From positions 1 through 26,760 of IMG/VR virus record IMGVR_UViG_3300024346_000429: a stretch of DNA of 26,760 nt. The stretch is one strand, 5' to 3'. This document shows positions 1-24,112 of the stretch, one piece after another. This DNA comes from a virus. Position 1 is the first letter of the stretch. Each line of letters opens with the position of its first letter. The notes under the pieces were generated by a model, which was not told the origin of the DNA, searched no databases, and saw nothing but the letters and a program-made list of their open reading frames with translations. A program made the position numbers and the translations under genes.

Positions 1-1291
1 TTTTGCCTTGCGCATCGTACACATAACCACCCGTCTTGCGTGCAGATTGACGCAACACATCTGTTACTTGTGCCTCTGTTAGAGCAGGATTTGCAAGTAT
101 CACACTACCTGCTATTGCAGCCATCACCGGGCATGAACATGATGTTCCACTGAAGTTAGTATAGTTGCTTGTTGCGTTGTAACCAAATGCACCCATGCGA
201 TCAGTTGTAGGGCATCCAACACCGGGTGTTGCAGCAAATGTTTTTGGTCCGTAATTACTAAAAGTTGCACGTGTGTTTGTAGTGGTTGATGCACCAACTG
301 CATGTACCATCGGATAGATAGCCGGTGCTTGTGTAAAGTTGCCGTTGTTTTGATTGCCACTACTTGCAAAAATCGGAATGCCTTTGCCACCACGACCAAA
401 TGTCTTTGCAGCTGTAAGTCCATTTTGGAATAACGGATAGCTTGTAGTGCCACCGCCACCCCATGACATTGATACAGCTACACAATTCACGTTGGCTATT
501 GCTTTATTGATTGCACGTGTTACGATGGTATCGGATGTGCCGAAGCTACCACCTGCTGTGCTGCCATAACCAATGTGCAAAAATTGCACTTTCAATTTAT
601 TGTTGCCAAGTGATGAAACACCTATGCCGTTATCTGTGCTTGCGCATATCAATCCACTGCAACAAGTGCCATGCTTTTCAAATTCACTTGCAGGTCGAAC
701 ATCTGCTGCATCCGTTACGCAGTTCCAACTAGTAGCACTAATAGTACCTACCAAGTCTTCGTGATCCACCTCACAACCAATGTCAAGTACTGCAACTTCA
801 CCATAGGCATTTGCACCAATTAGTGACCATGCTTCTTTTGCTTTTGCATTTGGTAAGTGCCACTGCGCATCGTATGCGTATGCATCTGCATCCACTGCAA
901 ATTGCTGTATGTAATCAGGCTCAACACTGATAAACAATTTACTGCTCATCATTGCTAAATAAAATTCATCATAACTTGAAAAGGCAGGTACTTCAACAAA
1001 GAATGTTTTAGTGATTTCAAATTCATCCACTATAACTACTCTGTTTTTTTGCAGGTAAGCATGAGCAGCTTTGTAGTCGTTGGCAATAGCAATAGCAAGT
1101 CCCGTTGGTATGTTGTCTTGTGCCTTGTCTATTTCATATGCCTGCGATACTTTGGTAGCATTAGCCTTAACAGGTTGTGAATCTTGGAACACAATGATGT
1201 TGAATGGCTCATGAATAGCAACCACATTGCTCTTTGTTTTGTTTTTTTCAAATGACGATTTGTCTTTGAACTTAACTGCATTTATTTTCAT
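1..1291 (-). CDS. Subtilisin-family (S8) serine protease, C-terminus cut by the window edge
   Basis: The frame is open from an ATG at 1291 to the left edge, giving 430 residues without a stop. The S8 signatures are complete and in the right order. The catalytic Asp is D170 in VAVLDIGCEVDHEDL, the His is H207 in KHGTCCSGLI, the oxyanion Asn is N313 in FASSGNQNN, and the Ser is S384 in FSGTSCSCPVMAAIAG. About 145 residues precede the catalytic domain and look like a subtilase propeptide region (VEPDYIQQF followed by AQWHL). I see no signal peptide, so the enzyme probably acts in the host cytoplasm or in the virion. Its start overlaps the prohead protease stop by ATGA, which places it in the late structural operon. 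The family assignment is firm. A role in head or tail processing is inference from position. The residues after the Ser motif that lie beyond the window are unknown. Confidence 0.93.
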   Translation of the reverse strand, partial: MKINAVKFKDKSSFEKNKTKSNVVAIHEPFNIIVFQDSQPVKANATKVSQAYEIDKAQDNIPTGLAIAIANDYKAAHAYLQKNRVVIVDEFEITKTFFVEVPAFSSYDEFYLAMMSSKLFISVEPDYIQQFAVDADAYAYDAQWHLPNAKAKEAWSLIGANAYGEVAVLDIGCEVDHEDLVGTISATSWNCVTDAADVRPASEFEKHGTCCSGLICASTDNGIGVSSLGNNKLKVQFLHIGYGSTAGGSFGTSDTIVTRAINKAIANVNCVAVSMSWGGGGTTSYPLFQNGLTAAKTFGRGGKGIPIFASSGNQNNGNFTQAPAIYPMVHAVGASTTTNTRATFSNYGPKTFAATPGVGCPTTDRMGAFGYNATSNYTNFSGTSCSCPVMAAIAGSVILANPALTEAQVTDVLRQSARKTGGYVYDAQGK

Positions 1292-1884
1292 TTGGATGGG
1301 TTTACACTTTTCAATAGTTGATCTAACTCATGGACCAATTCAGCCTCGTAGTTTTTTACACCTGCCATAGCCACACCAACTTCATTGAAGAAGCCTTCTA
1401 TGCTGTAACCTTTTACCTTGCCTTCTTTCACATCTTGCCACACGCTGTCATCGTCTACGTGCGTACCAATAAACCATGTGCCATCAGGCAAATCATTCAA
1501 GCCAAGTTCAATGCTCTTATCGTTCTTGCCTTCCTTTATCCATGATTCAACTACGGTCACACCCGTGACTGGTATCTCGTGTTGCAAGTTGGTGGTGTGT
1601 TGCAGATTCTTTTTGAAAAACTGATGTGCCACCTGTTGCACTGTTGCCTTTTCAAAGTACACATAGTAAGGTTCGTTATTCTCATCATAGCGCAGTATCT
1701 CCCTATCAGGTATCAATGCAGCACCATACATCATGCGCCTTTCTTTGTCCACTTTTGCAAGCTGCATTTTGCTTAACGCAATCCAGTTCTCTTCGATGGC
1801 AGGTGTGTCAACCAAACCCATTGCAGTGATGCCAAGTCTACCCTCTGCATCTATCACACATTTAACTACTTTTCTTTTTTCCAT
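1288..1884 (-). CDS. Prohead maturation protease, XkdF-like (S78 type)
   Basis: 198 residues resembling the putative phage serine protease XkdF (Peptidase_S78_2), which cleaves scaffold and capsid during head maturation. Visible signatures are GLVDTPAI near residue 23, GAALIPDREILR near 54, YYVYF near 73, the histidines H87, H96 and H102 (the last in LQHE), VVESW near 111, and GTWFIGTHVDDDSVW followed by KGYSIEGFF. By analogy with S78 proteases, H102 and S161 (GYS) are the candidate catalytic pair. It lies 18 bases after the tape measure stop and overlaps the subtilase gene by ATGA. A prohead protease usually precedes scaffold and major capsid genes, so those probably lie left of the window. 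The family is fairly sure; the catalytic residues are inferred. Confidence 0.8.
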   Translation of the reverse strand: MEKRKVVKCVIDAEGRLGITAMGLVDTPAIEENWIALSKMQLAKVDKERRMMYGAALIPDREILRYDENNEPYYVYFEKATVQQVAHQFFKKNLQHTTNLQHEIPVTGVTVVESWIKEGKNDKSIELGLNDLPDGTWFIGTHVDDDSVWQDVKEGKVKGYSIEGFFNEVGVAMAGVKNYEAELVHELDQLLKSVNPSK

Positions 1885-1888
1885 ATTA

Positions 1889-1920
1889 CAAATATATTTT
1901 ATTTATCCGATACGTGACAA
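1889..1920 (-). promoter_or_regulatory. Possible weak internal promoter before the protease genes
   Basis: On the minus strand a TATATTTG (1896 to 1889) fits the Bacteroidota -7 element, with TTG at 1920 to 1918, but the spacer is 21 bases rather than the 19 seen at the three better promoters. A start would fall close to the protease ATG at 1884, making the mRNA nearly leaderless. The match may simply be the AT-rich ribosome-binding region usual in this phylum. Confidence 0.25.
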
Positions 1921-4341
1921 GTCCTCAACCTTTGTGCGCACTTCTTGTTGTGATGCCACGTCACCTGCAAGCACATACGCACGTGGTGTAACTTGGTCAG
2001 GTCTGTCTTGTAAGAATGATGAAGCAAGTGGATTGAACTGCGCAGGTTGTGACCCTGTGTCACCGCCACCGCCACCGCCTATTGATGGTGGGGGGGATGA
2101 TGATGATGAGCCGGGTGATTCGTATTTAGTCGCAGCAATTTTTGCTATGCTTGCTAATCCAGTTGCAGCAGCAAATGCAGCAGACGCAATACCAACAGGA
2201 TTCGGCACAGCTAATATAGCAAGTGGTGCTGCTGCTATTGACGCAGTCACCGCTTTGGCTGCATCCATTGTAGCACCTGCAAGTTGTAGCTTTTTATTTA
2301 GTTGGAATTGCTTTTTAAAAAGTGCTTCCTCTTCTTTGCTACCCTTTTTTACTTTGGCTAACTTGTTTGCAAACGCTGCATCACTGATGCCTTGTATTGC
2401 ATTGACTGCACCTTGCGCTAATTCAATGCCCTGATTAACTGTGGCTAATTGCTCTTGTCTTTTTTTCTCTTCTTCAGTTAGTGCTATGGCAGCAGCCTCA
2501 TCTGCATTTGCTTGTTTTACTGCATTGACTTCTTCACCTTGTTGCTTTTCTATGGCAACCACATCTATTGCCTGTGCTTCTTCACCCGGCTTTAACGATG
2601 CATTGAATGCTTCTGCTGCTGCAAGTAGCTTTGCATACTTTTCTTTTACCGCTAATTCTTCTTTCTCATTATCACTTAGACTGTCTAACAAATTTTGATT
2701 TTGCAGTGCAGCTAATTCGTTGTAGTAATTATCCGAAAGTGCTAATCTTTTTGCTGCTTCATCTTGCGCTGCTTTTGTCCTTTCTTGTTCATGCTCTTCA
2801 AATGATTTTAGCAAGTCATCAAACAATGCCTCTTCTTCTTTGGCTAGGTCTTGTGCTATTTTTAATTTAGCATCGGCTTCTGCCTTAGCATCATCTGCTG
2901 CCTTTTTTGCTGCTGCTTTATTTTTTGCGTCACGTGCATTCAACAATCCATCACGTGTGTTTTCTAAATCCGTTACTCCTTTTTTCGCTGCTTCTGTTGC
3001 TTCTTTAGTTTCCTTTTCTACTTTGGCAGGATCAAACAATAAGTTTGAAACGGAATCCGTAAACTTATTTCTAAGATTGCCAACTTTTGCAAAGGTTTCA
3101 TCAGTAATAAATCCCGCTTTATTCAAGCCTTCGGTAAGCAAATCAACACCTGCTAAAAGAGCAGTAAGTGGTAACGAAACAAAATTTAAAAGTCCTTCTA
3201 AAATTTCTTTGTTTCTTTTCGCTGCATCTATCTGTCCTTGTGCCTGCGCTTCTGTTGTTTCCGCTGTTACTTTTGCTGTAAGTATTGCAAAGTCTAATGC
3301 TTCTAACTTTTTTTGCAGTATCTCTTCCTCAGTAAAGCCTTGCCTTTTTAGTGATTCCTCCTGCTGACCTATTGCATCAAATTGTTGTTTCGCCTGTGCA
3401 GTTTTTTCTTTTTGTATTTCTAATAGTGCTTGGTCTGCATCTGTCACACCATCAATTAATGATAGCAATTCTTTTGAATAAACAACAGCAAGTGCAATGG
3501 CTGCACCAATTAAGAATATCGGGTTTGTAAGTAGTGCCTTACCAACTGCACCCAGTGCGCTACCTATACCTTTGATGCCTTTAGTAATATCACCCGGCTT
3601 AATGTCACCAATGTTTTGCGCAAGTAGTTTTGCACCTTCTGCTGCACCTTCAAAGTCAAGTGATGCAATGCGTGATGTGACAAGTCCAAGTGATCCACCT
3701 ACACGCTCAAATGCACCACCTGCTTGTGTACCTACTGCCTGTGCAGCGTCTTGTATTTTGTCTTTCAGTATACCCGCTTCTTGCGACAACTCACGATACT
3801 TTGTGCTATCGGGTTCTGTGTTTGCAAGTTCAGCCTGCAGTTCACGCAGCTGTGCTTTGAGTGACTTGCTCGATGCAACTACATTTTCTTCTTCTACTGC
3901 CAACTCTTTGAAGTCAGTGCTTGCAGTTTCAATACTTGACGTGTCAACTTTCGTGTCTTTTAGTTCTGCATTCAGTTGGTCAGTTGCAGTTGCTAATTGC
4001 GTGACAGGTGCAACAGCTTGTTCAACAGCATCACCGACCTTCTCAATGCTCTTAGCTGCATCACCTGCATCTATGTTTTGTAAGGCACTACCTATCTCAT
4101 CAATCTTGCCCGTTTCAATCTGCGTGATTGTACTCTCAAGTGTTTTGATTTGCGCATTGACATCAGTGAATGCTTGCGTGTTTGGATCAAGATTTTGTAG
4201 CTGTGTATCTAAGCTAACAAGCTGCGCATACATCGCATCTAGTGACGCAGTGGTTGCATTGATTCCCACATTCAACTGTTGCAGATTTTGCTCTGCTGCA
4301 CTTGTGTCAATTACAAAGGTCCTTACAATAGGTGCTGCCAT
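1903..4341 (-). CDS. Tape measure protein
   Basis: 812 residues, mostly helical and coiled-coil, rich in Ala, Gln, Lys and Glu. There is one hydrophobic segment at about residues 271 to 289 (NPIFLIGAAIALAVVYSKE) and a second apolar Ala-rich stretch near 700 to 740 (VTASIAAAPLAILAVPNP). The C-terminus has a Ser/Pro/Gly linker (SSSSSPPPSIGGGGGG). This layout is typical of tape measure proteins, which fill the tail tube, set its length and help DNA enter the cell. At the usual 0.15 nm per residue it implies a tail of about 120 nm, which fits a siphovirus (an inference). The start ATG overlaps the stop of the 57-residue membrane protein gene as TAATG. It is followed directly by the prohead protease, an unusual order. 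Confidence 0.85.
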   Translation of the reverse strand: MAAPIVRTFVIDTSAAEQNLQQLNVGINATTASLDAMYAQLVSLDTQLQNLDPNTQAFTDVNAQIKTLESTITQIETGKIDEIGSALQNIDAGDAAKSIEKVGDAVEQAVAPVTQLATATDQLNAELKDTKVDTSSIETASTDFKELAVEEENVVASSKSLKAQLRELQAELANTEPDSTKYRELSQEAGILKDKIQDAAQAVGTQAGGAFERVGGSLGLVTSRIASLDFEGAAEGAKLLAQNIGDIKPGDITKGIKGIGSALGAVGKALLTNPIFLIGAAIALAVVYSKELLSLIDGVTDADQALLEIQKEKTAQAKQQFDAIGQQEESLKRQGFTEEEILQKKLEALDFAILTAKVTAETTEAQAQGQIDAAKRNKEILEGLLNFVSLPLTALLAGVDLLTEGLNKAGFITDETFAKVGNLRNKFTDSVSNLLFDPAKVEKETKEATEAAKKGVTDLENTRDGLLNARDAKNKAAAKKAADDAKAEADAKLKIAQDLAKEEEALFDDLLKSFEEHEQERTKAAQDEAAKRLALSDNYYNELAALQNQNLLDSLSDNEKEELAVKEKYAKLLAAAEAFNASLKPGEEAQAIDVVAIEKQQGEEVNAVKQANADEAAAIALTEEEKKRQEQLATVNQGIELAQGAVNAIQGISDAAFANKLAKVKKGSKEEEALFKKQFQLNKKLQLAGATMDAAKAVTASIAAAPLAILAVPNPVGIASAAFAAATGLASIAKIAATKYESPGSSSSSPPPSIGGGGGGDTGSQPAQFNPLASSFLQDRPDQVTPRAYVLAGDVASQQEVRTKVEDLSRIG

Positions 4342-7679: not shown

Positions 7680-8963
7680 TTATGTGTTGTATTGATTAGA
7701 CATGCGAACTTTCAAAGTCACGTTGTATAGCTTGCCGTCACTTGTACGCTTTTCTACATAGCTTGTGTCATCTATGTTCACAGGTATCTCAATGAACTTG
7801 CTATCGTATTCTGTTAGCCATGTGACTTGGTTGGATGCAAGCAATGATCGTAGTAAAATAAATTCACCTTCTGTTATATAATCCGATGTGACAGTTAGCA
7901 CTTGTTGCACTAAGTTTTGGCGTTGTGTTAGCGTCCTATCGTTGGCGGTAAATATGGAAGTGCTACCATTGAACAACACTTTGCGGAATGTCTTGCGCTC
8001 AATCTCATTTGTTATCTCTGACTTCTTTGTAAAGTTGAAATAGTCCCAACCGCCACGACTATTGACCCAACCTAATCTGATATTATCAAAGTTGCAATCT
8101 GCCTGCCCGTAGTCGTGTGTGTTGTAAAATATGTATGATTCACTTTTGCCAGTAACACTATTCAATACGGCAACTGTGTAGCATCTCCAGTTAGCAAACA
8201 ACGAAGGCTTCACTGTTAGTCCTGTCCAGTCATTCAAGTTAGCAGGGTACACTGGCAAGTTCTCAATATCAAAACCACTCAACATAATTGTTTCTTGTGT
8301 TGGTACACCCGTGCTGCTAAATATCGTAATAGTAAAACGATCAACTACATTGTTCGTTAGATAGGTGTCATTGCCCGGTATGGACAGCACACCATAGTCT
8401 TGTTCAAGCACAGGTATCCAAATGCTATTTGTAGCTACACCAAGTGACCATGATTCACTAAGGTAAAAAGGTGAAGTGTTGTTGTTGCGATCACTCATTG
8501 CATACGATGAAGTATTTGTAAGTGATTGCCTTACGGCAGCACCACCCGTTTGCACATTTGGCTTGTAGCCATCTATCACTTGGAAGTACCCATTAACTGC
8601 TAAGGCACTATCGCCATAAACCTCACTGCCCGGATTTTGATCTAATACACCTGCGACAATCCACCACTCAGTAAGTGTGAATGTTAGCGTCATGCCACTT
8701 GTATCTGCCTGCGTATTATCGGTTGCAAAGTGAAAGTTTTGTGGCTCATAGTTACGCATCGTGTCAAGCAATGGGTTCATGTCGAAGTACAGCCTGTCAT
8801 CAGGTGCAGGACTTAAATAGAATTGATAAGGCACTCCATTTAGTATTACTTCAACACCATACTTGAATCCAGTATTGCCAACCTCATCACTGATTGCAAC
8901 AATCATTAGCTTTTGCCCACGCAATGCCCATGTATATGGTTGGTCATTTATCGTTATTGCCAT
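7680..8963 (-). CDS. Putative tail protein (distal-tail-like)
   Basis: 427 residues, predicted largely beta. It starts MAITINDQPYTWALRGQK, close to a distal-tail style N-terminus, and has a motif I associate with Bacteroidota phage tail proteins, RLGWVNSRGGWDYFNFTKKS near residue 294, followed by IERKTFRKVLF. The C-terminus is also beta-rich. It lies between the gp10-like gene (TAATG overlap) and the 1054-residue tail protein (TAACATG). The position fits a distal tail or tail tube component, but I cannot decide between them from the sequence. No signal peptide or membrane segment. Confidence 0.55.
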   Translation of the reverse strand: MAITINDQPYTWALRGQKLMIVAISDEVGNTGFKYGVEVILNGVPYQFYLSPAPDDRLYFDMNPLLDTMRNYEPQNFHFATDNTQADTSGMTLTFTLTEWWIVAGVLDQNPGSEVYGDSALAVNGYFQVIDGYKPNVQTGGAAVRQSLTNTSSYAMSDRNNNTSPFYLSESWSLGVATNSIWIPVLEQDYGVLSIPGNDTYLTNNVVDRFTITIFSSTGVPTQETIMLSGFDIENLPVYPANLNDWTGLTVKPSLFANWRCYTVAVLNSVTGKSESYIFYNTHDYGQADCNFDNIRLGWVNSRGGWDYFNFTKKSEITNEIERKTFRKVLFNGSTSIFTANDRTLTQRQNLVQQVLTVTSDYITEGEFILLRSLLASNQVTWLTEYDSKFIEIPVNIDDTSYVEKRTSDGKLYNVTLKVRMSNQYNT

Positions 8964-9481
8964 TATCTTTTGTTTAGTAAAAATCTTTGTTCAATGCCTT
9001 TCACGTAGCCTTCAATTAACTTGTCTTTGTACTCTTCCCACGTATCGTCTACTGCTTCTTGATAGTAGTTGATGCCTTCAATACCTTTCTCACCAATGCT
9101 TTTTGCTATTGCAAATGCTGCACTTTTTATATTGCTTTCTGTTGCCTTAATAAATTGTCCTTGTCTATTGCGAAGCTTCAAAGGTTTTAATCGTATCCAT
9201 GCTTCAATAGGTTTTACTGGCGGCATCTTTGCGCCTGCTCTTCTACCAAACTCAATCACATCCGCATACTTACCTGCTTGGTCATTTGACACAGTGAAGT
9301 CAAGTGTTGGCTTGTTGTAACGGAACTTTAACTTGTAGTAAAGTGACTTTGCTAAGTGACCTGATGCATTGCGATTGACTACCTTACCACGCACCCTTCT
9401 TGTGATGCGTAGGTTGGATTGCGCGCGCTCAATTACAGCTACTGCGTATTCGTTTAGTATGTCCTCAAATGCATCTGCCAT
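8963..9481 (-). CDS. HK97 gp10-like tail completion protein
   Basis: 172 residues. The pattern YADVIEFGRRAGAKMPPVKP followed by IEAWIRLK is the core signature of the HK97 gp10 family (a tail completion or head-tail connector protein). The N-terminus is a helix with many charged residues (AVAVIERAQSNLRITRRVRG), then ASGHLAKSLYYKLKFRY, as in family members. Length is close to the family norm. Both neighbours overlap by TAATG, so it is translated as part of the chain. In this family the protein acts at the head-tail interface; here it sits among tail genes. Confidence 0.75.
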   Translation of the reverse strand: MADAFEDILNEYAVAVIERAQSNLRITRRVRGKVVNRNASGHLAKSLYYKLKFRYNKPTLDFTVSNDQAGKYADVIEFGRRAGAKMPPVKPIEAWIRLKPLKLRNRQGQFIKATESNIKSAAFAIAKSIGEKGIEGINYYQEAVDDTWEEYKDKLIEGYVKGIEQRFLLNKR

Positions 9482-11685
9482 TACAATACTTCTTCGTATT
9501 CAACTATGCTACCTGCTTTCACAACTACACCACCCGTAGATAGACTTATCATTGATATATTAAATGTGCCTGATGCAGTTGCTACATAAATACCATCAGC
9601 ACTCACAATTCTATTGTTACCAACCGCAACAACAACACCTGTATTATTTGCGCTTCCATTACTTACTATGTTAGTAGATGCGCCACTGCCTAAAGTGAAT
9701 CGGTAAATCGTTGTGCCTGCTGGTCCATTGGTTGAAAAGCATGCCGTAGTTGTTGCCGTTACCCAAATAGTTGCACGCCACTTGTAAGTTTTACCTGCTG
9801 TCATTGCAAAGTTTAATGCAGTCACATTTTGGTAAACAGTACCTGTAGTTGTTTGATCAGTTGACACTACAGCACTGCCTAAACCTAACTCACTTTTTAA
9901 AGTTGCAAGTGATATTGCACTGACTGTATTATTTGCATTCACACGCAAGTAAGTTACAGCACTTGGATTTGTTAGCGTTGCAATGCTGTTGCCTATTGTA
10001 GTCAATCCGATGCTTGCTTGCTTACCATTGAAGGTAGACCAATCTGCAGCACTTAATGCACCACGATTTGCAGCACTTGCAGTTGGTACATTTAGCGTGA
10101 TGACCGGTGTAGTTGTGCCATTAGCAACAGTACTTCCTAAGTCGCTACCTGATGTGCCTATCGTCAATGCAGCAACCGATGTAACTGTGCCTGTTGGTAT
10201 ATCTCCGCTACCAAATATCGAAGTGCTATTAACTGTCTTTACTGATTGATGTTGCCACTTTGCAGGTGCACCACCATACAACCAAACATCGTTAGCTGTT
10301 GGTGTACCGCTTTGCATATCTATGCCATGTATTCTATGCACAGTTGGATTTGGATACGTGCCTGATAAATCACCACCTGCTGCACCATTTGGTGGCAGTG
10401 CTGTTGGTATAGTTGGAAAGGTTTGCAATGCGCCTGATCCATCTACATACTGCGCTGCTATGCCTGCTCCCGTAATTGCAAGTGTGCCTGATGTCGTAAT
10501 TGGTGAACCTGTTACAGTGAATGCAGCAGGTGTAGTAAGTGCAACCGATGTGACTGTGCCACTATTTAAAGTTGGCTTATTTAAAATTTCAGATACACCA
10601 CTTGCACTATTCCAATCACTGTTTACTTGTGCCGCAGGTATGCTCGGTAAGTTAGATAAGTCATTGTAGTCATTTGAATAAGCAACTGCACCTAATTGAC
10701 CATTTTGCCATTCATTACTTGGTGTATCAAACAGCAACACATCGTCTTGTTGTGGGCTGCTGTATTGAACATCAGTCAAGTCATTCAACTCGGTTGGAAT
10801 CGTTGGCTTGTTTAGTATTTGATGATCACCTGTACTTGCATTCCAATCAACAGGTGTTTGTCGCAACCTGTAACCTACACCAACAAGTGTCCAATAGCTT
10901 GTGTTGGTTGGTATAATTGCATCGTTGTTGGCAGTGGCTCTATACACATTGCCGTTATACCACACACGATCACCAACTAAATACTGATTGCCTGTTGCAG
11001 TTGTGTGGTCAGTGTTGTATTCAGTACTTACAAATTCACCACCGCCACCGCCACCCGTTGCCTCAATCGTTACCGATCCATTCCCGTTGTCAGTTATGTT
11101 TATGCCAGTGCCATCAACTAAGTTCAATATGTTTTGAACGGTGTTGTCTATACTATTTGTTCGTAGCAATACACCATAGCCAACACCACTACCACCGCTA
11201 CCACCTGCACCACCAATGGACCATATTGCAGGGATGTCGCATGCGGACCAATCCCAAGGCACTTCTAATTTTATAGTGAATGCAACACCTGTCACCGTGT
11301 TCTTTTGCTCTTCCATGAATGGCTCAAACACTGGCTTATCGACAAGCTGCACATTGAAGCCAAACAACTCCAAACCATTTTGCACTTCTGCAATAAGGTC
11401 CTGCCCTAATCGTATGCAGTCGCTAATCACTTCACGTTGGTATTCTGCCTTGTATTCTTTGTCTCGTGGTATGTCGGCAAACATGATGTGAAAACCGAAC
11501 TGCATGCCCCCTGAAATTGGTTCTATCGTATCGGGCGTAACGTGCATGAAGGGGTATTGATCATCTTGCAACTGATCACTCAAATCAATTTGCCCATGCG
11601 TAAATCTGCGTATTAAAAAGTGACCTGCTGCAAATGCCTCAAGTCGATTGATCAATACGTTGTAACTATAATTGTAACTATCCAT
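9481..11685 (-). CDS. Tail-completion-like domain fused to a fibre (possible neck or tail fibre)
   Basis: 734 residues with two clearly different halves. Residues 1 to about 150 are a compact mixed domain (AFAAGHFLIRRFTHGQIDLS, then DDQYPFMHV, FHIMFADIPRDK, IKLEVPWDWSACDIP), reminiscent of tail terminator or tail completion proteins. A Gly/Ser linker follows (GGAGGSGGSGVGYG), then about 560 residues of fibre-like repeats: WNASTGDHQILNKPTIP, WNSASGVSEILNKPTL, GTVTSVA twice, GDLSGTYPNPTV, and a beta-rich C-terminus. Such low-complexity Thr/Gly/Asn repeats are typical of fibres. The start overlaps the -1 frame of the chaperone by 8 bases. Fusing a neck-type domain to a fibre suggests whiskers or fibres at the head-tail junction, which is inference. 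It could instead be an ordinary tail fibre with an unusual anchor. Confidence 0.65.
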   Translation of the reverse strand: MDSYNYSYNVLINRLEAFAAGHFLIRRFTHGQIDLSDQLQDDQYPFMHVTPDTIEPISGGMQFGFHIMFADIPRDKEYKAEYQREVISDCIRLGQDLIAEVQNGLELFGFNVQLVDKPVFEPFMEEQKNTVTGVAFTIKLEVPWDWSACDIPAIWSIGGAGGSGGSGVGYGVLLRTNSIDNTVQNILNLVDGTGINITDNGNGSVTIEATGGGGGGEFVSTEYNTDHTTATGNQYLVGDRVWYNGNVYRATANNDAIIPTNTSYWTLVGVGYRLRQTPVDWNASTGDHQILNKPTIPTELNDLTDVQYSSPQQDDVLLFDTPSNEWQNGQLGAVAYSNDYNDLSNLPSIPAAQVNSDWNSASGVSEILNKPTLNSGTVTSVALTTPAAFTVTGSPITTSGTLAITGAGIAAQYVDGSGALQTFPTIPTALPPNGAAGGDLSGTYPNPTVHRIHGIDMQSGTPTANDVWLYGGAPAKWQHQSVKTVNSTSIFGSGDIPTGTVTSVAALTIGTSGSDLGSTVANGTTTPVITLNVPTASAANRGALSAADWSTFNGKQASIGLTTIGNSIATLTNPSAVTYLRVNANNTVSAISLATLKSELGLGSAVVSTDQTTTGTVYQNVTALNFAMTAGKTYKWRATIWVTATTTACFSTNGPAGTTIYRFTLGSGASTNIVSNGSANNTGVVVAVGNNRIVSADGIYVATASGTFNISMISLSTGGVVVKAGSIVEYEEVL

Positions 11686-11957
11686 GATTTCTTCTTTTCT
11701 GCATTTCTACTTTTTGCACGTACACATAATCTGCTAAGTAAGTCAAGTGCGTAAACACTTCCGTTGCCATTCTTTCAGTGACTGCATCAAACTTTGTGAT
11801 GTCTCTTTCTGCAAGTGATTCAATGATGTGAAACCAACCATAGGCATCTAAGCCGTCTGGTGTACCTCCGTCATCTCCTTCACTATCTCCGTTATCTCCT
11901 TTGCCAAATATTCTAGGGAAGTGTTGTATAGTTCTGTTTCGATAGTCGAAAAAAAAA
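11678..11957 (-). CDS. Frameshift extension of the tail chaperone (T-like domain, -1 frame)
   Basis: In the -1 frame relative to the chaperone, codons run open through and past the T9 tract to a TAG at 11680 to 11678. They encode an acidic linker (GKGDNGDSEGDDGGTPDG) and a helical domain with YGWFHIIESLAERDITKFD followed by TEVFTHLTYLADYVYVQKVE. There is no ATG, GTG or TTG before the last 30 or so codons, so it cannot be made as an independent gene of this length. It would be read as a fusion of about 256 residues after a -1 shift. The frame ends 8 bases into the next gene, which fits a real, tightly packed coding region. If the slip occurs later than T9, in the AAGGAG-rich stretch, more of the 0-frame helix is kept. 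A sequencing error in the homopolymer is the main alternative. Confidence 0.6.
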
Positions 11958-12447
11958 GCAATACATTTAGTACATGGTCCAGTGTTAGTTCCTTCACTGC
12001 ATCTATGTACTTTCTTTTCGCCTCAGTCTTGTATGCATCAATATCGTAAAAGTTGCCAAACTTTGCTTTGATGGGGCGGTATAGTATGCACATCATTTTG
12101 AGTGCAGCTTCACCATTCACCTTTGCGTCTTTGTACAAGCTTGTGCATGCGCTGTCAAGGTCCACATACTCACCAAAGGTCATCTCTTGCAGGTTGGGAA
12201 TGAAACCTAATTCAATCGCACCTACACGCACCTTGCGCTCAAAGTCATTACTGCCTAAATGCAACACCGCTTCAAACTGCATTATTATTTGATCAATCAC
12301 ATGGGCCTGCAATAGTCTTATGCTCTCACTGCTCTTCCCGGTTATGATATGCACCTGCTCTGTTTTGTCAACTGCATTCTGGTAGTCGATGTACTTGCCC
12401 AGTGTCACACCCTTTGCATTTGCTGCTATGTTTACATTCATCTTCAT
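11848..12447 (-). CDS. Tail assembly chaperone, G-like product
   Basis: 199 residues, helical. The segment LGFIPNLQEMTFGEYVDLDS followed by CILYRPIKAKFGNFYDIDAY matches a conserved pattern I know from Bacteroidota phages, in which the protein sits before the tail genes. In lambda-like phages this position holds gpG, which binds the tape measure with gpGT. The gene contains nine T in a row on its coding strand (11957 to 11949) at codons CTT TTT TTT TCG, a perfect -1 slippery heptamer. Downstream, the -1 frame is open for about 90 codons with no start codon of its own (see the separate entry). The 0-frame tail after the slip site is 33 residues (STIETELYNTSLEYLAKEI and on) and also looks coding. 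Confidence 0.7.
   Translation of the reverse strand: MKMNVNIAANAKGVTLGKYIDYQNAVDKTEQVHIITGKSSESIRLLQAHVIDQIIMQFEAVLHLGSNDFERKVRVGAIELGFIPNLQEMTFGEYVDLDSACTSLYKDAKVNGEAALKMMCILYRPIKAKFGNFYDIDAYKTEAKRKYIDAVKELTLDHVLNVLLFFSTIETELYNTSLEYLAKEITEIVKEMTEVHQTA
11949..11957 (-). promoter_or_regulatory. Candidate -1 ribosomal slippery site (T9)
   Basis: Nine consecutive T on the coding strand place U UUU UUU in the X XXY YYZ arrangement in the chaperone frame, allowing both P- and A-site tRNAs to re-pair after a -1 slip. Purine-rich AAGGAG and GGAG repeats lie about 50 to 80 bases downstream, too far to be a classic stimulator of this site. Confidence 0.5.
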
Positions 12448-19370: not shown

Positions 19371-19628
19371 ATGAGTAACTACACACAGAAAGAAGGGCAG
19401 GGTAGCCTTTTCAAAAACACCTACAAGGAAGCAGCTGCACAACCAGACTACACGGGCAGCGTGTTAATCAATGGCAAAGAGATGCGACTTGCTGCATGGG
19501 TCAAAGAAGGTAAGAACGGTAAGTTCTTTTCATTGCAGTTGTCAGAAAGTGACAAGCCAAAAGTTGACAAGGCAGAAAGTGTCAAGACAAATAATGTCCA
19601 AAATCATAGCGACGATTTGCCTTTTTAA
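19371..19628 (+). CDS. Small protein with SSB-like acidic tail
   Basis: 85 residues. The core DYTGSVLINGKEMRLAAWVK followed by NGKFFSLQLSE looks like a short beta-barrel fragment of the OB or DUF736 kind. The C-terminus ends HSDDLPF, very close to the DDDIPF tip of bacterial SSB that recruits repair and replication proteins. The protein is much shorter than a normal SSB (about 110 to 180 residues). A mini-SSB or a mimic of the SSB tail is plausible. It overlaps the large terminase as TAATG. Confidence 0.6.
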   Translation: MSNYTQKEGQGSLFKNTYKEAAAQPDYTGSVLINGKEMRLAAWVKEGKNGKFFSLQLSESDKPKVDKAESVKTNNVQNHSDDLPF

Positions 19629-20926
19629 TGATTGAGTATTTGCCAAAGCAAAATGAAGCACTGCGTGTGTTGGGTAATTCACACCCGGCACGTGTGGTGC
19701 TTTTTGGTGGTGCAGCTGGTGGATCAAAATCTTTCATCGGTTGCGCTTGGCAGATAAGTAGACGATTCAAATACCCCGGCACGCGAGGTCTGATTGGTCG
19801 CAGCAAACTTGACACGTTAAAAAAGACAACGCTCAAAACATTCTTTGAAGTTGCACAGATGCTTGGTCTTGCACCAAATGAACACTACACAATCAACAAC
19901 CAAACACACGTTATTACTTTTGCAAATGGTAGTGAGATAATTTTAAAGGACTTGTTTGCCTACCCAAGTGATCCTGAATTTCATTCACTTGGTGGACTTG
20001 AGTTAACGGATGCATACGTGGATGAAGCTGCGCAGGTATCAAAGCGTGCAATAGACATTCTACAGTCACGCATCCGATTTAAGCTACGTGAATTTGATTT
20101 ACCACCAAAGATGTTGCTCACATGCAATCCGTCAAAGGGATGGCTTTACAATGAGTTCTACGCACCATACAAGTTGGACAACTTAGCGCAGCACCTTGCC
20201 TTTATTCCATCACTTCCAACAGATAACCCACACCTGCCAGATAGCTATCTTGAAACACTTGAGCGATTGCCTGAAATAGATAGGCGAAGGCTGTTGTATG
20301 GTGACTGGGAATACGATGAGTCAGTAGATAACATGTACAACTACGATGACTTGGTGCGATGCTTCAGGGAAGAGGAAGCAAAGGGAGATAAATTTATCAG
20401 TGCCGACATTGCACGACTTGGTAAGGACCGAAGCGTGGTGTGCGTGTGGCATGGTTTGCAGTTAATCGAGATCCAAGAACTACGCAAGCAACCAATAACA
20501 TCTGTTGTCACTTTGATCAAACAACTTTGCGACAAGCACAGTGTGAAATTATCTAATGTGATCTGTGATGAAGATGGTGTAGGTGGAGGTGTCACGGATT
20601 TTTTAAAGTGTAGAGGCTTCCTTAATGGTGGTCGTGCAAAGCAATCGGATAAGTTCACCAACCAAAAAGCGGAATGCTATTTTAAGTTGGCAGAACTTGT
20701 AGAGCAGAACAAAATTATTTTCAAGGTTAGCCAGTACAGGGATGTGATCGTGCAGGAACTGGACATGATAAGACGCAGGCAACCCGAAGCCGATGGCAAG
20801 CTTGCAGTGATAAGCAAGGATGAGATAGCACGCATGCATGGTAAAAGTCCTGACTACGCTGATGCAATCATGATGCGCATGTATTTTGAACTATTCCCAA
20901 ACTACGGCAGCTATTCGTGGGCGTAA
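19628..20926 (+). CDS. terL: Terminase large subunit
   Basis: 432 residues, a normal length. The packaging ATPase part has Walker A VLFGGAAGGSKSFIG (residues 24 to 38) and Walker B with AYVDEA (D132, E133), then LLTCNPSKGW as motif III. The RNase-H-like nuclease part has ISADIARLGKDRSVV (D260), VICDEDGVGGGV (D314, D316) and SPDYADAIMMR (D409, D412). The enzyme cuts concatemeric DNA and drives it into the prohead. It is encoded with replication genes, overlaps the SSB-like gene as TAATG, and sits on the opposite strand from the structural operon and the small-terminase-like gene. The assignment is secure. Confidence 0.95.
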   Translation: MIEYLPKQNEALRVLGNSHPARVVLFGGAAGGSKSFIGCAWQISRRFKYPGTRGLIGRSKLDTLKKTTLKTFFEVAQMLGLAPNEHYTINNQTHVITFANGSEIILKDLFAYPSDPEFHSLGGLELTDAYVDEAAQVSKRAIDILQSRIRFKLREFDLPPKMLLTCNPSKGWLYNEFYAPYKLDNLAQHLAFIPSLPTDNPHLPDSYLETLERLPEIDRRRLLYGDWEYDESVDNMYNYDDLVRCFREEEAKGDKFISADIARLGKDRSVVCVWHGLQLIEIQELRKQPITSVVTLIKQLCDKHSVKLSNVICDEDGVGGGVTDFLKCRGFLNGGRAKQSDKFTNQKAECYFKLAELVEQNKIIFKVSQYRDVIVQELDMIRRRQPEADGKLAVISKDEIARMHGKSPDYADAIMMRMYFELFPNYGSYSWA

Positions 20927-24080: not shown

Positions 24081-24112
24081 AAATGCCCTGCAACGGTGGG
24101 GCATTTTTTTTT
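24081..24112 (+). terminator. Rho-independent terminator
   Basis: AAATGCCC (24081 to 24088) pairs with GGGCATTT (24099 to 24106), with a 10-base loop and a run of T to 24112. It ends the rightward operon. On the other strand only four T follow the stem, so it may also weakly end the leftward lysis transcript, whose last stop codon is at 24111. Confidence 0.85.

Follow-up and report, generated by a model that had tools for sequence, protein, structure and literature searches.

The window, that is, the whole stretch of viral DNA analyzed here (26,760 nucleotides, positions 1 to 26,760 of the IMG/VR record IMGVR_UViG_3300024346_000429), carries on its minus strand a gene that contains a run of nine T's (T9), past which a second reading frame is open. 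The features of this locus are the following:

12447-11848, minus strand: 0-frame gene (G-like) of 199 codons and 199 aa, with an N-terminal core and a frame-specific 33-aa tail past the slip site
11957-11949, minus strand: T9 tract, the predicted slip site, read in the 0-frame as CTT TTT TTT TCG
11956-11950, minus strand: T_TTT_TTT, a -1 slippery heptamer in the correct 0-frame register, common to every T9-bearing relative
11678..11950, minus strand: -1 frame extension encoding the T-like domain (90 post-slip codons and a TAG stop)
11848..11949, minus strand: dual-coding overlap from the slip site to the 0-frame stop, with substitution suppressed at all codon positions

The first-pass annotation had described a T9 run with an in-frame U UUU UUU in this gene, a -1 frame open from there to 11678 over about 90 codons, the lack of start codons over most of that stretch, and an end 8 bases inside the next gene. 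Our analysis reproduced each of these points. Reading in the -1 frame is uninterrupted from 12022 down to the TAG at 11680-11678, which places its end 8 bases past the start of the next gene at 11685, and the open stretch has no ATG, GTG or TTG before its residue 84, past the conserved YGWFHIIESLAERDITKFD block. The predicted fusion product comprises 256 aa, encoded by 166 codons before the slip and 90 after it. In random synonymous recodings of the 0-frame, the -1 frame was kept open across the overlap in just 0.57% of cases; because of this low fraction, and because the arrangement is conserved with the exception of one relative, the openness of the -1 frame exceeds what chance would produce. 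A shift into the +1 frame was considered and rejected, as the open stretch of that frame, a short one near the 0-frame stop, does not extend as far back as T9.

The window contains a single other nine-T run, at 24104-24112 on the plus strand, located after a short GC-rich inverted repeat, GCCCTGCAACGGTGGGGC. Run and repeat together look like a putative intrinsic terminator between convergent genes.

Conservation and selection at the slip site

A protein search of IMG/VR provided a first set of 35 relatives of the 199-aa protein, of which 34, at 68-100% identity, share both the T9 tract and its phase and likewise keep the -1 frame open. Wider searches reached lineages at 22-36% protein identity, including the Nonlabens phages P12024S and P12024L, a large family around L121 and L122, and the L284/L285/L288 groups. 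Altogether T9 was present at 271 loci and T10 at one, where the extra T is a substitution in the codon after the tract, while one contig (L036, the same as L038) has no tract; the loci overlap between searches, and 144 of the fusion proteins are distinct. Thirteen additional loci, mostly from distant lineages, carry T9 in all cases, as do the isolate genomes of P12024S and P12024L. In bacterial genomes, scans turned up just one relative, which a Winogradskyella MAG carries on a contig of 3 kb; this contig together with the Nonlabens phages suggests that the hosts are Bacteroidota-type bacteria.

Since these loci were retrieved by protein similarity, the choice of codons at the slip site was not selected for. 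A stricter test was provided by two codon-degenerate DNA scans that allowed any Val or Leu codon followed by any two Phe codons at the site: among the matches listed, at least 236 distinct contexts all read NTT TTT TTT T, with no synonymous variant of the slip site. Neither was a mixed heptamer found in any T9-bearing lineage examined, and TTC was never seen as the third slip codon, though in several lineages it would leave both encoded proteins unchanged. On this comparative evidence, the recoding site is real and strongly conserved, and its slip site is an unusually invariant run of pure T.

Homologues in which the downstream domain is absent or separately encoded, would speak against the frameshift proposed in the first-pass annotation; among these relatives, the domain lies in the -1 frame after T9, with the exception of one contig. 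This contig, L036 (2475-3137), is near-identical to the T9-bearing L030 except that it lacks 104 bases spanning the slip site and the overlap, and in it the core and the downstream domain run in one frame. It is a single-frame form that derives by deletion from a T9-bearing, L030-like relative. As the sequence of one metagenome contig, it supports the predicted fusion product, and it may represent either a phage making the fusion alone or an assembly artefact.

The same contig could be taken to favor a trivial explanation, namely that a homopolymer sequencing or assembly error has split a gene that is truly one continuous frame, all the more so as T9 is a classic error-prone tract. We consider this scarcely credible, as L036 differs through its 104-base deletion and not through one T, the identical T9 recurs in hundreds of contigs as well as in the two isolates, and conservation also extends to the 0-frame tail beyond the slip, with dual coding visible as detailed below. 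It is also highly improbable that the -1 domain is a small protein of its own, expressed from a separate start or by translational coupling, as the annotation of P12024S would have it, with two genes of which the second starts at an ATG. Between the preceding -1 stop and a conserved Trp, 141 of the 144 distinct relatives have no ATG, and approximately half of the 144, the window included, have no ATG, GTG or TTG whatsoever; for most relatives, separate initiation therefore cannot explain the domain. In addition, the -1 codons directly past T9 are conserved across lineages.

The pattern of substitution was obtained by counting changes by parsimony on the trees of two families, that of the window and that of L121. 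Upstream of T9, third positions of the 0-frame change 8.7 and 8.2 times per codon in the window and L121 families, respectively, and past the 0-frame stop, third positions of the -1 frame change 11.3 and 6.0 times. Between T9 and the 0-frame stop, all codon positions are slow, which indicates two overlapping coding frames. At the three slip codons, third-position changes are zero in both families; elsewhere in these genes, invariant Phe codons average 9.5 and 3.3 changes, and in one family three of the seven other invariant Phe columns likewise never change. The 0-frame tail past the slip is conserved as well; in the L121 family, for example, the 0-frame product is always 214 residues long.

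Proteins of approximately 25% identity align continuously across the junction only with a frame change at T9, with the junction sequences ILFFLSFRERL in P12024S, VVFFLEFRERL in L122 and LLFFFDYRNRT in the window. The first-pass annotation had also considered the AAGGAG repeats, which are further downstream, as the place of the slip. This position does not agree with the data: we place the slip at T9 because the -1 residues directly after it are conserved across lineages and because dual coding begins there. Judged from such sequence comparisons, the analysis shows the exact point of the predicted shift and two overlapping frames, with selection on both. Programmed -1 recoding at T9, yielding a short and a fused product, is thus supported by the relatives, the change pattern and the junction alignments.

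Ribosome or RNA polymerase

How the shift takes place is a matter of judgement and not of computation. A ribosomal -1 slip on U_UUU_UUU is, in our opinion, the probable mechanism. By the same kind of judgement, transcriptional slippage is a realistic though doubtful alternative: the host RNA polymerase would add or remove U's on T9, the resulting U10 or U7 mRNAs would be translated normally, and the product ratio would be set by the polymerase rather than by the ribosome. The two processes could also contribute together.

The tract itself bears on both. T9 is unbroken in every relative that has it, without a mixed heptamer in any lineage, as polymerase slippage would predict. In E. coli, RNA polymerase slippage occurs on runs of seven or more T's, with a rescue of about 5% on T7 and 10% on T8 and a bias toward poly(T) (PMC6260861). 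However, the outermost T at either end can be accounted for by the amino acids encoded there (Leu/Val in frame 0, Leu/Phe in frame -1), which leaves seven T's for which constraint is demonstrable, and rules derived from E. coli may not hold in Bacteroidota. An uninterrupted A/T run of at least about eight or nine at the frame switch, conserved as it is here, is equally expected for a ribosomal U_UUU_UUU site.

The third slip codon leads to a similar balance. Both variants of U_UU.Y have been rated as shift-prone (PMC4066793), and TTC should therefore suit the ribosome equally well, yet it does not occur, which would fit the polymerase better. This absence is statistically weak in view of the three unchanging columns among the seven other invariant Phe columns of one family, and we judged it too weak to serve as proof of transcriptional slippage.

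A further point in favor of the polymerase is that no ribosomal stimulator was detected at the site. An upstream Shine-Dalgarno-like element, the stimulator of the dnaX/IS3 kind, is not a feature of either the window family (0 of 76) or the L121 family (5 of 64). Downstream, mean z-scores of pseudoknot-free folds are near 0 over 60 and 90 nt, and consensus folds are weak, show little covariation and differ between the families. To our knowledge, lambda gpG/gpGT likewise slips without an obvious stimulator. When no stimulator is present, shift-prone heptamers in E. coli yield only 2.1 to 10 times a background of 0.055% (PMC4066793). Against the polymerase stands the strong precedent for ribosomal slips in tail chaperones, that of lambda among them (PMC5009743); the tail-chaperone shifts cited here have been described as translational, including that of P2 E/E+E' (PMC3091744).

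Slightly more tentative is a clade-wide version of polymerase slippage, in which a large and widespread clade of Bacteroidota phages might set the ratio of its two tail chaperones by slippage of RNA polymerase on an invariant T9 and not by ribosomal frameshifting. If true, chaperone stoichiometry would become a property of the transcript pool. With T9 invariant over lineages of 22-36% protein identity, the site lends itself naturally to testing whether the polymerase can set the ratio of tail chaperones.

Tail gene neighborhood and candidate function

Genes of the window with structural annotations include the following:

9481..11685, minus strand: next gene, 734 aa (phrog_9729), with a tail-fibre-like C-terminal part
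8963..9481, minus strand: tail completion or neck-like protein (phrog_29822)
1903..4341, minus strand: candidate tape-measure protein, 812 aa, weak match to phrog_3336
1288-1884, minus strand: head maturation protease-like protein, with an odd shared match to a PHROG labelled DNA methyltransferase (phrog_1530)
19628-20926, plus strand: terminase large subunit, opposite in orientation to the tail module

In the larger relatives, the frameshift gene comes after the terminase (P12024S and L298) and is followed by a gene of 138-156 aa or a larger protein with tail-fibre-like repeats, by the neck/tail-completion protein (phrog_29822), by two larger genes, and then by the tape-measure candidate and the head-protease-like gene. 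The terminase is thus directly upstream of the frameshift gene in P12024S and L298, in contrast to its place on the opposite strand in the window. The tape-measure candidate has the same orientation as the frameshift gene and is located downstream of it, with about four genes and 5-7 kb in between, and the counterparts of this 812-aa gene in L296 and L298 match tape-measure families at 1e-6. Among the genes examined, none could be recognized as that of the major tail protein. The N-terminal part of the gene at 9481-11685 sits where P12024S has a separate 138-aa gene, and the whole seems to be a connector-like N-terminus fused to tail-fibre-like repeats; its length differs between relatives (734 and 834 aa).

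Taken as a whole, the gene is likely to be a programmed -1 recoding locus with a 199-aa short product, a 256-aa fused product and a role like that of the G/GT chaperones, a reading built on sequence comparison. Most expression would lead to the short, G-like protein, while a minority would shift one base back on T9 to give a GT-like protein that shares its first 166 residues with the short form and adds the conserved C-terminal domain. Short copies, in large numbers, would then coat the tape-measure protein, and fused copies, few in number, would recruit the tail tube protein, as do lambda G and GT. It is quite likely that the pair works in this way. We describe it as working like G/GT and do not file it as a proven member of that group, because several genes separate the frameshift gene from the tape measure, in the window and in its relatives alike.

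The first-pass annotation had called this the G/GT pair of the phage. That assignment is favored by the synteny of the tail module and by a weak similarity of fold to chaperones; against it, none of the Pfam chaperone profiles scored above the cut-off, the best being Phage_TAC_7 in 1 of 11 sequences at a chance-level E of 0.35. Sequence searches of Pfam, PHROG and the PDB returned no informative family. The short product was modelled with AlphaFold2 for two lineages, with moderate confidence (pLDDT 80.5 for the window and 79 for the other). Foldseek found nothing significant in the PDB; against viral models it recovered many uncharacterised phage proteins, and the informative names among the matches were tail assembly chaperones, at weak E values of 0.037 and 0.83 in one search and about 0.5 in another. 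A second-look aligner gave the HK97 tail assembly chaperone 2ob9 as the top PDB match of the window model, with a weak Z of 3.1 over 59 residues; for the model from the other lineage it did not recover HK97 gp13 and returned only an unrelated chain (Z 2.7).

The neighborhood also admits a different function for a truly recoded gene, that of a head-tail connector or another assembly factor with a C-terminal variant. The gene adjoins the terminase in P12024S and L298, directly precedes connector/neck-like genes at a distance of several genes from the tape measure, and has a weak match to phrog_20522, 'virion structural protein' (E 0.006). We regard this function as unlikely, since a short and a fused product encoded in a tail cluster are typical of tail assembly chaperones, the weak fold matches are to chaperones, and the tape-measure candidate is downstream in the same direction. 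With a chaperone role as the preferred reading, a probable G/GT-type gene can now be identified in a large group of environmental phages.

Flavobacterium phage 6H contains a fold-level relative of the chaperone (L295, 10352-10927, minus strand) with a T_TTT_TTC heptamer near its end, after which a stretch of the -1 frame looks coding but is shut by an immediate stop. Divergent recoding and a sequence error in the record are both possible, and the gene was left out of the comparison.

Comparison with known systems

Lambda gpG/gpGT consists of a short product and a -1 fusion with a common N-terminus, the shift being located near the end of the first frame in the tail gene cluster (PMC5009743). 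The window has the same layout of a short and a predicted fused product, with the shift near the first-frame end and within a tail gene cluster. The two systems differ in that no family profile connects them, that the slip site of the window is a pure, invariant T9, and that the lambda gene is beside the tape measure, whereas the window gene is several genes upstream of a tape-measure candidate. In P2, E/E+E' (Phage_TAC_7) undergoes a translational -1 shift on TTTTTTG without downstream structure (PMC3091744); both systems thus shift by -1 on a T-run heptamer, although the run is TTTTTTG in P2 and T9 in the window. The likeness to HK97 gp13 (PDB 2ob9) is confined to the N-terminal helical part, with a low Z that was not repeated with the second-lineage model.

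Runs known for transcriptional slippage comprise nine A's in T. thermophilus dnaX and Tn, with n over 8, for mxiE (PMC3711429). Shigella mxiE and Thermus dnaX resemble the window in that the shift site is an unbroken run of about nine A's or T's. They differ in being cellular genes in which slippage was shown experimentally, the window site being known from its sequence.

Genes 38 and 39 of the Nonlabens phages P12024S and P12024L (phrog_32199 and phrog_38404) are the homologue of the window locus at 25% identity, with the identical T9, phase and -1 domain and with neighbors conserved between the two. The P12024S record lists them as two hypothetical proteins and makes no mention of a frameshift; by the comparison presented here, they would together encode a short and a fused product of the same kind as those predicted for the window.
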